Part shown: positions 38,701-43,746 of the stretch, one piece after another
How the letters are laid out: each line of letters starts with the position of its first letter
Position numbering within the stretch: the first letter of the stretch is position 1
NCBI RefSeq assembly: GCF_003258295.1
Contig: NZ_QKYN01000007.1
Location: forward strand, 1-64,000
DNA length: 64,000 bases
Direction: 5' to 3'
Origin: Streptacidiphilus pinicola
GTDB lineage: Bacteria > Actinomycetota > Actinomycetes > Streptomycetales > Streptomycetaceae
Translations under genes and position numbers: made by a program
Notes under the pieces: model-generated
What the model was told of the DNA's origin: nothing
Seen by the model: only the letters and a program-made list of their open reading frames with translations
The model's database searches: none

Positions 38701-39423
38701 CTACTCGAAGGTCATGCCGGACAGGTTGCCGCTCAGGGTCTGGGCGTGGCCCTGGACCATCTCCGCGTGGACGGCGAAGAGTTGGGCGTGGGAGGCGAGG
38801 TTGTCCGGGTGGATCATGAAGCCGTCGCCCGGGCCGTTGCCGGAGACGCCGAGCATGTCCTCCAGCGCCGAGTACGACATGCCCGCGACGGCCTTCTCGA
38901 CCACGCCCAGCAGCGGCGTCAGCGCGGCCTCGATGACCTCGCCGATGATGTACTGGACGAGCTGCTGCTCCAGGAAGTCGACGGCCATCTCCGCCGCCTT
39001 GACGATGAGCGCCATCGCCGCCTCGGCGAGGCCGAGTGTCGCCACGGCCGCCGCCTGGTCGGCGACGAAACTCGCGGCGAGGCCGATGAGTTCGCCGATG
39101 CACTCCATCTTCATCGCGATGATGTAGTCCGCGCCCGCCTCGAGCGCGGCGGAGAGCACCTGGCAGCCCTCGATCAGGTCCTGCATGTGGCCCTGGGAGA
39201 GGTGGGCCCACTTGGAGACCAGCAGCTCGTACGAGTTCCCCTGGTAGTGCTCGCTCATGGAGTTGATCGAGTCGGTCGCCTGCTGGTGCGTGTTCTGGAT
39301 GTTGTTGCCGAAGTCCCGGACGTGGCCCGCGAACTCGCGGACCTTGTCCTCGTTGATCTGCGGCCAGTTGATCCCGATGAACTGCAGGAACTGGGCGACC
39401 TCGCTGGGCAGTTCGATGGCCAT
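38701..39423 (-). CDS. WXG100-like helical carrier protein of the RHS toxin
   Basis: 240 residues, ribosome site GGGGGGA. Residues 15-90 are helical with the pattern of ESX/WXG100-type N-domains (NWPQINEDKVREFAGHVRDF, MSEHYQGNSYELLVSKW). A long hydrophobic helical stretch (about 100-180) and a short C-domain that ends HAQTLSGNLSGM follow. Such proteins precede RHS toxins in streptomycetes and are thought to be partners in type VII-like export. No secretion ATPase gene is in the window. Confidence 0.7.
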   Translation of the reverse strand: MAIELPSEVAQFLQFIGINWPQINEDKVREFAGHVRDFGNNIQNTHQQATDSINSMSEHYQGNSYELLVSKWAHLSQGHMQDLIEGCQVLSAALEAGADYIIAMKMECIGELIGLAASFVADQAAAVATLGLAEAAMALIVKAAEMAVDFLEQQLVQYIIGEVIEAALTPLLGVVEKAVAGMSYSALEDMLGVSGNGPGDGFMIHPDNLASHAQLFAVHAEMVQGHAQTLSGNLSGMTFE

Positions 39424-41567: not shown

Positions 41568-43373
41568 ATGACCATCTCGTCCTCGTCGGAGGCGAGCCCG
41601 ACAGCGGCGGCCGGCGGCGCGGCCGGCGACCAGGCCGGGGGTGGCGCCGCCACACCCGTTCCGGGCTGGGTCGAGGAGCAGGCCGGTCCCGGCGGAGGCC
41701 AGGCCACCCGGCATCTGCAGGCCGCGGCGCACCTGAGCCGGCCGTTCCGGCGCGCCGTCATCGCCGAACTCGTCGAGGAACGCCACCGCGTGCCGGCCCC
41801 CGCGCCCGGCACCGACATCGGCGCTGTGCTGGCCGAATGCCTGCGCGCCCGGCGCCACCACCTGTGGACCGCCCTGGCCTGCTTCGTCGTCCTGCTCGTC
41901 GGACTCGCCTTCGACGCCGTGGGCACCGCCTTCGCGCTCGGCGCGCTCCTCCAGGTGCTGCTCTGGGGCTTCGGGTCGCGCGCGGTCACCTGGGCGGTGG
42001 TGCGGCTGGAACCCCGCCTCGACACGCCCTGGCTGCGCGAGCGGGTGCGCCGCACCGTCCTCGCCGTGTTCTGGGCGCTGTACGCGGTGGAGCTCGTGTT
42101 CGGCGTCGCGATCCTGACCAAGCTCGCCCAGTCCGACACAGCCGGCTACGACGGGTACGACGGCTACGGCGGGTACGCGGTCACCCCGCAGCCGAGCGTG
42201 GGCGGCTCGCTGGCCGTGCCGGTCCTGCTGGTCGTGGTCTGGCTGCTGATCGGCGCCGTCTCCCGCTACCTGCAGCTGGGACGCCTCGCCGAGATCGGCG
42301 ACCCGCGCTCCGCCGAGCCGCCGTACCAGCCGCCGGCGGGGCTGCGCCCCGTCTTCGAGCGGCTGCGCTCCGGTGCGCTCGAGGCGGAGACCGTCTTCGG
42401 CGCCTTCCAGCCCTTCGTCGGCTCGGGGGTCCTGTACGACGACTGGACCCTGCACACCGAGCTGCGCCCGGCGGAGGCCGGCGTCACCGCCACGCCGCTG
42501 ACCGTCGCCGAGGCGCACGAGACGATCACGTCCTGGCTGCGCGGCCTCTCGTTCGGCGCCGACTACCCGGGCGACGCGCTGCACGCGCTGACCGTCCGCG
42601 ACCGCGTCTTCCGCTCCGGCCTGCGGGTCGAGAGGTCGGAGGCCTGGCACGGCTCGCTCTCCCCGGTCGGCCCCGACGGTCGGCGCGGCCTCGCCCCGGA
42701 CGCGGTCCGCGTGCTCGACGGGGCGGCGCACCCGCGGCTGCGCCACTACGTCGAGGCGCGCGCCGAGCTCTGGGGCGGGCAGGTGATCGTCTCCACCTTC
42801 GTCCGGGTGACGCTCCAGGGACAGCAGCTCTACCTGGAGGGCCTGCAGTACGTCCTGCCCCCGGTGGCGGAGCGCTACCGCGCCGTGGACCAGGCGCTGC
42901 GTCCGGACGGCCTGGACCTGCTGCGCTGCCTGTGGCAGGCGTCCACCCACCTCGGCCGCGACCTCGCCGACAACACACTGGAGGTCTGGTCGGCGCTGGG
43001 CTCCGCACTGCGCGGCCGCTGGAAGGAGCGCTGGCGCGACCGCATGCTCGCGCACGACCGCAAGGTCGATCAGTCCCCCCGGGTGAGCGTGCGCGAGCTG
43101 GGCGCGGACAGCCACTACGAGGTGCTCTTCCAGCATCTCGACGCGAAGCGCGTCTGGTCGGCGGTGGCGGAGCGGACGCAGGCGGCGCTGCTGTTCGTGC
43201 TGAAGCAGCACGGTTACAGCACTGAGCAGTTCGAGGCGGTCGTGCAGAACATCCACATCAACAACGGTGTCCAGAACTACAACAGCACCGTCTCGGGCGC
43301 GCAGGCCGCGGGCCGCGGCGCGCGGGCGAGCACGCATCCGACGGTGCCGCAGGCACGGATGGGAACGAACTGA
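41568..43373 (+). CDS. Membrane protein ending in a repeat-type NSTVSGAQA motif
   Basis: 601 residues, ribosome site GGGGGAG. Cytoplasmic N-tail, four TM helices (about 98-115, 118-135, 165-185, 212-232), with a short Gly/Tyr-rich loop GYDGYDGYGGYA before the fourth. A soluble part of about 350 residues follows (LRPVFERLRSG..., AHETITSWLRGLSFG, a helical region near 470-540). The last 40 residues hold GVQNYNSTVSGAQAAG, nearly identical to the N-terminus of the next protein, whose ATG is one base after this stop. I know no function. The facing motifs suggest a membrane sensor paired with a small effector. Confidence 0.75.
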   Translation: MTISSSSEASPTAAAGGAAGDQAGGGAATPVPGWVEEQAGPGGGQATRHLQAAAHLSRPFRRAVIAELVEERHRVPAPAPGTDIGAVLAECLRARRHHLWTALACFVVLLVGLAFDAVGTAFALGALLQVLLWGFGSRAVTWAVVRLEPRLDTPWLRERVRRTVLAVFWALYAVELVFGVAILTKLAQSDTAGYDGYDGYGGYAVTPQPSVGGSLAVPVLLVVVWLLIGAVSRYLQLGRLAEIGDPRSAEPPYQPPAGLRPVFERLRSGALEAETVFGAFQPFVGSGVLYDDWTLHTELRPAEAGVTATPLTVAEAHETITSWLRGLSFGADYPGDALHALTVRDRVFRSGLRVERSEAWHGSLSPVGPDGRRGLAPDAVRVLDGAAHPRLRHYVEARAELWGGQVIVSTFVRVTLQGQQLYLEGLQYVLPPVAERYRAVDQALRPDGLDLLRCLWQASTHLGRDLADNTLEVWSALGSALRGRWKERWRDRMLAHDRKVDQSPRVSVRELGADSHYEVLFQHLDAKRVWSAVAERTQAALLFVLKQHGYSTEQFEAVVQNIHINNGVQNYNSTVSGAQAAGRGARASTHPTVPQARMGTN

Positions 43374-43374
43374 G

Positions 43375-43746
43375 ATGGCGTCTCCCGAGTACCGCAACGA
43401 GTCGGGGATCCAGAACATCAACAGCACGGTCAGCGGCGCGCAGGCCGTCGGCACGGGCGCGGTCGCGTCCGTGGGAACCCCGCCCGAGGCCAACGCGCTC
43501 GCCGAGGCGGTGGGGGTGCTGCTGCGTCAGCTGCCCGCACTGGGCCTGGACACGGAGACGGCGGAGGACGCGGAGGCGCACCTGGAGGACCTCCACGCGG
43601 AGGCGACCGCGGCGGAGCCGAGCCCCGGCCGGGTGCGGCGGGCGTTGAGCGGCCTGAAGGGCGTTCTGGCCGGAGTGGCCGCAGCGGCGGGCGCCCTGAC
43701 GGCGGTGGAGAAGGCTGCGGAGCCGCTCCTCAGGCTCCTCGGCTAG
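43375..43746 (+). CDS. Small helical protein beginning with the shared NSTVSGAQA motif
   Basis: 123 residues, coupled to the gene above (TGAGATG). Residues 7-30 contain GIQNINSTVSGAQAVG; together with the preceding protein's motif, 17 of 22 positions agree. A helical middle follows (LAEAVGVLLRQLPALGLD, AEDAEAHLEDLHAEA) and then a hydrophobic, Ala/Gly-rich end (LKGVLAGVAAAAGALTAVEKA) that could insert in or lie on a membrane. The combination of a short motif plus small helical domain recalls bacterial amyloid-signalling effectors, but that is inference. The stop codon lies at the edge of a dispersed repeat. Confidence 0.75.
   Translation: MASPEYRNESGIQNINSTVSGAQAVGTGAVASVGTPPEANALAEAVGVLLRQLPALGLDTETAEDAEAHLEDLHAEATAAEPSPGRVRRALSGLKGVLAGVAAAAGALTAVEKAAEPLLRLLG

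Follow-up and report, generated by a model that had tools for sequence, protein, structure and literature searches.

A gene pair of Streptacidiphilus pinicola with matching terminal tags, a candidate NLR-independent relative of bacterial amyloid-signalling pairs

Among the closest described systems are the bacterial amyloid signalling sequences (BASS), the original description of which is reportedly that of Dyrka et al. in 2020. They are the motifs of NLR-Bell gene pairs (available text of PMC7889193 and PMC8086366). The PP motif is homologous to RHIM and BASS3 (PMC12261475, in the portion available), and in bacterial conflict systems the effector-associated adaptor domains are for the most part folded and alpha-helical (PMC8195603, likewise in part). 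A review of amyloid signalling raises, in its available part, the question of whether NLR-independent signalling amyloids exist in bacteria. The subject here is a pair of adjacent genes, A and B, in a 64,000-nucleotide stretch of DNA from Streptacidiphilus pinicola (contig NZ_QKYN01000007.1, positions 1 to 64,000; referred to below as the window), whose products carry the same short tag at their facing ends. The pair and its relatives form a family that is a direct candidate for such an amyloid, with a membrane receptor and reversed polarity. With a probability of about 0.6, we consider A-B to be a two-gene receptor-effector module, an NLR-independent and polarity-reversed relative of bacterial amyloid-signalling pairs, in which the tags would form amyloid and activation might kill the cell. 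No earlier report of the A-B pairing was found in the open-access papers searched, among which those on amyloid signalling concern NLR-linked or unrelated systems.

The gene pair and its shared tag

The pair and its parts are arranged as follows (residue numbers refer to the protein named).

41568..43373, + strand: gene A, 601 residues; putative membrane receptor, with an alpha/beta domain in the cytosol and a C-terminus that is disordered and bears the tag
41817..42296, + strand: membrane part of A; four long model helices (residues 84-113, 117-147, 154-191 and 216-243)
43266..43331, + strand: shared motif at the C-terminus of A (residues 567-588)
43375..43746, + strand: gene B, 123 residues; N-terminal motif, then a four-helix domain, DUF5955 (PF19380)
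43405..43470, + strand: shared motif at the N-terminus of B (residues 11-32)
43483..43743, + strand: helical domain of B; model helices 37-52, 60-77, 84-105 and 108-122

The two copies of the motif are identical at 17 of 22 positions, as the preliminary description had stated, and their local score of 85 is far above chance. Shuffling the 45-residue head of B against the 40-residue tail of A gave a mean of 24.3 (standard deviation (sd) 4.8) and a maximum of 59 in 20,000 trials, and whole B shuffled 2,000 times against the whole of A reached 71 at most. In the AlphaFold models the tag lies within a stretch of pLDDT below 50 in both proteins (residues 561-601 of A and 7-34 of B).

A of the window has no match close to any cut-off among Pfam or NCBIfam families. 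Hydropathy gives it three hydrophobic stretches (106-135, 164-182 and 213-231), the first of sufficient length for a hairpin, and the Gly/Tyr-rich loop at about residues 191-205 would lie on the outer side by the positive-inside rule. B scores 34.3 bits against PF19380, above the curated cut-off of 27.1, and has a hydrophobic Ala/Gly-rich stretch at about residues 93-111, in its last helices. Both of these features had been pointed out previously, as had the spacing of the genes, which also proved correct: one base separates the A stop codon from the B ATG, and 113 bases lie between the stop codon of an upstream GGDEF gene and the ATG of A. Structural likeness of A to the helix-grip/START-like (Bet v 1-like) family was weak and that of B was to a generic helix bundle; neither was usable for family assignment. 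Profile searches of the PDB with A, B and a RHIM-like tag returned nothing convincing, mostly coiled-coil or designed proteins at E-values of 0.003-1.

Recurrence of the pair and variation of its tags

A search with window A matched 234/394 genomes of the family Streptomycetaceae, representing 13/17 genera. From the first 131 matches listed, one (G174) was set aside for an internal stop, leaving 130 loci (L070-L199), with L085 and L106 representing the same gene. A is present in every one of the 130. B was detected by a profile built without the tag and had to lie on the same strand no more than 600 nucleotides (nt) behind A, and it directly follows A in 120 of them. Of the others, L167 has its profile match at 620 nt and nine have none; inspection by hand of these nine, together with L072 and L142, located a small tag-bearing open reading frame (ORF) behind A in all 11. 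That ORF was the best match to the A tail within the locus in 8/11, ranked third in L116 and L154, and fell outside the top three in L142. B also lies behind A in 80/80 loci of a second set, the best 80 of 366 matches (79 titled Streptomyces; relatives of the first sequence of A3), which overlaps the first set (at least 16 contigs agree in length) and so is not an independent sample. Two of the small partner proteins (L090 and L178) appear to carry two tag copies. Genes behind the pair in L175 and L199 resemble, by eye, those for vWA and PP2C-type phosphatase proteins, both of which occur in other conflict-system clusters.

Removing L072, where the head was wrongly cut, and the duplicate L106 from the 120 loci left 118 pairs for tag analysis. 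Across these the tag ends a median of 11 residues before the A C-terminus, and in the 80 pairs of the second set it starts a median of 7 residues after the chosen B start. The motif recurs at protein ends and in neighbouring genes; it is terminal in the measured pairs and disordered in both models, which does not support its being an internal part of one large fold.

Tag sequences diverge strongly from locus to locus, yet agree within each locus. In L074 the same sequence, GGVQVVGSTVHGPVAGG, stands at both ends; L075 has VTGNVQSGSHARADY and VTGVVQSGSHARADY, L087 has IIGNQAIGAGATA and YVGNQAVGPGARA, and L158 has AVGIGDHNTITHH and AFAIGDHNTVTHN. The cognate score exceeded all 1000 shuffles in 111/118 pairs and was reached by ten or fewer in 116/118, the others being L142 (22 shuffles) and L093 (23); in the second set 79/80 pairs outscored all 1000.

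The agreement holds when close relatives are grouped. In a permutation test, loci were clustered by identity of the A core (L072 was counted in here), and cognate pairs scored about twice as high as permuted ones at every threshold: the cognate and permuted means were 72.1 and 36.8 (sd 1.33) in 110 clusters at 90% identity, 70.8 and 36.2 (sd 1.68) in 66 at 70%, 74.6 and 39.0 (sd 3.12) in 23 at 50%, and 75.2 and 41.2 (sd 5.21) in 10 at 40%. The single best partner was the protein's own B in 27/110, 25/66, 14/23 and 7/10 clusters, respectively, so that near relatives often score equally well.

Had A and B acquired their tags by one old duplication and then evolved separately, columns that are alike in A and B at each of two loci but unlike between the loci (parallel) should be as frequent as crossed ones. 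Quartets of two loci gave a different result. At 30-55% A-core identity there were 187 parallel and 14 crossed columns, with 51 of 56 disjoint locus pairs parallel, 2 crossed and 3 tied; at 55-75% the columns numbered 42 and 6 (44 locus pairs: 22 parallel, 2 crossed, 20 ties). Hardly any signal was left at 75-92% (8 against 1 columns; 27 locus pairs: 3, 1 and 23 ties). A more stringent version, in which each tail was aligned to a wrong head to define the segments and which is thereby biased toward crossed columns, still gave 110 against 16 in the 30-55% class (37/56 pairs for, 7 against, 12 ties) and 31 against 7 in the 55-75% class (16/44 for, 2 against, 26 ties). With uncut segments the counts were 179 against 16 and 37 against 11 in the same two classes. 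Judged from these sequence comparisons, the tags of A and B evolve in concert.

Repeated local DNA duplication or gene conversion could leave such a likeness as a functionless trace. Identical tag residues of cognate pairs do share codons more often (0.638, n = 1772) than the 0.514 expected from the codon usage of the loci, but non-cognate tags show an equal excess (0.640, n = 2870, against 0.494), which indicates a codon habit of the tags and speaks against recent DNA copying. In the window the two tag copies are identical at 48/66 bases and use different codons at 4 of the 17 identical residues, one serine being encoded by TCG in A and by AGC in B. The excess of the cognate match over every shuffle in 111 pairs also weighs against this explanation, which is largely refuted and retains only a very small probability.

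Ten genomes carry two usable pairs, and in these the cognate tags scored higher than the non-cognate ones in 20/20 same-genome comparisons (78.2 against 35.8). A private tag for each pair suggests that A and B recognise one another through contact of like with like, possibly of a prion-like kind. Concerted change would likewise arise if both ends were bound by a common third partner, such as a chaperone, a protease or a lipid, but since tags differ between pairs of one genome, each pair would need a partner of its own. No recurring third gene was noticed in the loci, which were not searched systematically for one, and a shared partner appears quite improbable.

Genomic site, distant relatives and other sensors

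The GGDEF gene upstream of the pair occurs in 14/14 genomes of the host genus. In 12 of these, fdhD comes after it with no match to A or B, and the pair is present at this site only in the window's genome and in G008. Between these two genomes the surrounding genes are similar (GGDEF 91%, FdhD 90% and HutH 99% identical over the available parts), while A is 56% and B 70% identical. At the GGDEF site, A-B is an accessory, fast-changing module, and not part of a cyclic di-GMP operon. It had been proposed that GGDEF, A and B are co-transcribed as one system. A signalling operon of three genes, uniting the pair with the diguanylate cyclase gene upstream of it, would accord with the shared strand and the 113 bp spacing in the window, and with the GGDEF gene upstream of the pair in G008, but the other 12 genomes of the genus have the cyclase gene without the pair, and tblastn over the fetched loci (whose flanks were often only 1.5 kb) placed a GGDEF relative beside the pair only in the same two genomes. 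The operon was rejected as a general feature and is the least credible of the explanations weighed. One of the sites lacking the pair (L348, G007) has about 500 nt of unexplained sequence between GGDEF and fdhD, where other empty sites have roughly 30-330 nt; this may be what is left of the pair. On the far side of the GGDEF gene, the window encodes a WXG100-like protein (38701-39423, - strand; PF25547 9.6e-11, PF06013 1.8e-8), from a family linked to type VII secretion.

Beyond these relatives, a phylum-wide search with an A profile matched 11/246 genomes, at 22 loci representing 19 distinct genes. For eight of the 19, among them that of the window, there is a partner whose tag matches. In L285, from outside the order, the tags are AGNIGGEGNSG and AGNIGGSGNNG; L284, from outside the class, has a different tag that still matches its partner; and L297 (NVQNQPGA at both ends) and L300 have wholly different, again matched, tags. 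The B profile matched the partner strongly in L280, L281 and L283, weakly in L285 and L300, and not at all in L284, L287 and L297, so that five of the eight partners were recognised by the tag itself. Another eight A paralogues end without a tag, in KADVYDA or similar (L288-L290, L292, L294, L295, L296 and L298), and no B-profile match was found in the 1.1-1.4 kb fetched behind them. One of these is in the window's own genome (L295, G000:C6:53576-54697). The tagless group probably has another function on the same scaffold. In L282, L286 and L291 a partner was not seen, L286 being near a contig end.

Of the preliminary description, the idea that a shared terminal motif couples a membrane sensor to a small effector is supported by the recurrence of the pair, the terminal place of the tag, its concerted change, the insulation of pairs within a genome and the tagless paralogues; the part that joined the GGDEF gene to them by co-transcription is not.

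The pair is also carried by plasmids. A of L200 matched 4/72,556 plasmid records, and in the two that were opened the next gene has a matched tag. In one plasmid (L344, NZ_CP107767.1, typed as mobilizable), the pair lies beside genes annotated as an AAA ATPase, an ATP-dependent endonuclease and a helicase, an arrangement reminiscent of defence genes. A tblastn search with window A found no match in 50,697 phage records.

The B alignment found matches in 80/99 genomes, many of the weaker ones coinciding with the ordinary DUF5955 gene, and 33 further regions were then fetched. In six of these, an upstream ORF of beta-helix type terminates with the tag found in the B head, with scores of 82-128 (PF13229 was tested in two, L313 and L317), and in two more a DUF6232 protein (PF19744) does so (L333, score 95; L334, score 64). 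Nine regions have an A profile match, with the A tail the best match to the B head in seven, matched by eye in L330 and loosely in L325. A tag-like B head whose partner was not found within the fetched region occurs in L323, L331 and L332; L322 offers only a doubtful internal match, L342 is cut by a contig end, and in the rest the profile match is in an apparently wrong frame or lacks a clear head. The main DUF5955 gene of the order is present in 250/293 genomes, and an N-terminal tag was not visible in the correctly framed copies that were read (L013-L063); this gene may be a tagless core relative of B. PF19380 was matched at E 0.01 or better by 21/36 aligned B proteins. Nothing on DUF5955 or DUF6232 was found in the open-access papers searched.

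These further sensors raise the prospect, which we rate at about even, that Streptomyces and its relatives carry a large NLR-independent class of prion-like modules, in which A, beta-helix or DUF6232 sensors with private self-recognising tags share a common small helical effector, and in which co-diversification of the tag pairs would let several modules operate in one cell without cross-talk. DUF5955-like proteins and DUF6232 gain a testable role from this. The family also supplies well over a hundred natural cognate tag pairs, including paralogous pairs kept apart inside one cell, as a data set on the specificity of like-on-like assembly.

Proposed mechanism and comparison with known systems

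The tags differ in composition from the rest of A: 46-48% of their residues are G, N, Q, S or T, about 10% are charged and 2-3% are proline, compared with 22%, 22% and 6% in the A core. An IG-x-x-N kind of core, which resembles RHIM, is held by both tags in 19/118 pairs. The RHIM Pfam profile found no match at E-values up to 10 in eight proteins, four of them with a GDxN core, although HMMER filters may drop weak short matches. Composition, disorder in both models, diversity of types and the IG-x-x-N cores together fit amyloid signalling motifs, and the tag core would probably be amyloid-like cross-beta.

From these properties comes the proposal that A would seed B through the tag and that B would act at the membrane. 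A would be an inner-membrane protein (four model helices) with a large cytosolic domain, at the end of which stands a flexible tag, about 22-28 residues long and rich in G, N, Q, S and T. A trigger acting on A would cause its tails to cluster. Through like-on-like beta stacking, the clustered tails would recruit the identical tags of B or serve as their template, which would concentrate the helices of B at the membrane for action there, possibly in conflict or cell death. Such a module would be akin to NLR-Bell amyloid signalling, minus the NLR and with the signal passing from the C-terminus of the receptor to the N-terminus of the effector. Like-for-like change at the ends of two unrelated proteins, as seen here, is what stacking of identical segments in register would require, whereas hetero-docking would rather need complementary segments.

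Like could also bind like in a finite way, the tags forming a homotypic beta contact (for instance a sheet of two or three strands, or a short beta-solenoid cap) by which B docks on A stoichiometrically, with B a subunit or regulator of A and no killer. The sequence tests require no more than like binding like, and AlphaFold shows no structure in either tag. Against such a contact, the variety and composition of the tags and their place at flexible ends resemble the amyloid signalling motifs described in the available parts of PMC7889193 and PMC8086366, and the two tag copies of some B proteins (L090) suit stacking. A finite contact is judged unlikely, and the amyloid-like receptor-effector module remains the preferred reading.

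Effector-associated adaptor domains are likewise held, in the available part of their description, to recruit an effector to a sensor homotypically, but by a folded domain, where A and B share a short disordered tag. Among defence models, the C-terminal part of PADLOC PDC-M14B (positions 156-257 of 275) weakly resembles B (E 5e-5), although PDC-M14B is twice as long; one of its models, PDLC04448, matched 0/80 genomes of the order, and none of 39 A proteins matched in PADLOC. The helical domain of B is that of PF19380 (DUF5955), from whose main representative in the order, in the correctly framed copies read, B differs by its visible tag. RHIM, fungal PP and BASS3 share the IG-x-x-N kind of core with the 19 pairs that have it in both tags, which suggests BASS3 for that subset; most A-B pairs are without such a core.

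The closest comparison is with BASS as a whole. In both, adjacent genes encode proteins with a short motif common to their ends; there are many sequence-unrelated motif types, each matched inside its pair; and the partner is a small helical protein with a hydrophobic helix, the possible likeness of B to Bell lying in its four-helix model and its Ala/Gly-rich hydrophobic stretch. Both are known mainly from filamentous actinobacteria and cyanobacteria, as far as the available BASS texts go. The differences lie in the receptor and in the polarity. The receptor here is a membrane, beta-helix or DUF6232 protein and not an NLR (NB-ARC/NACHT), none of 39 aligned A proteins matching an NLR family of Pfam at E 0.01, and the motif is at the receptor C-terminus and the effector N-terminus, the reverse of BASS. 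Because its receptor is not an NLR and its polarity is reversed, A-B is not filed as a BASS, though it would work like one.
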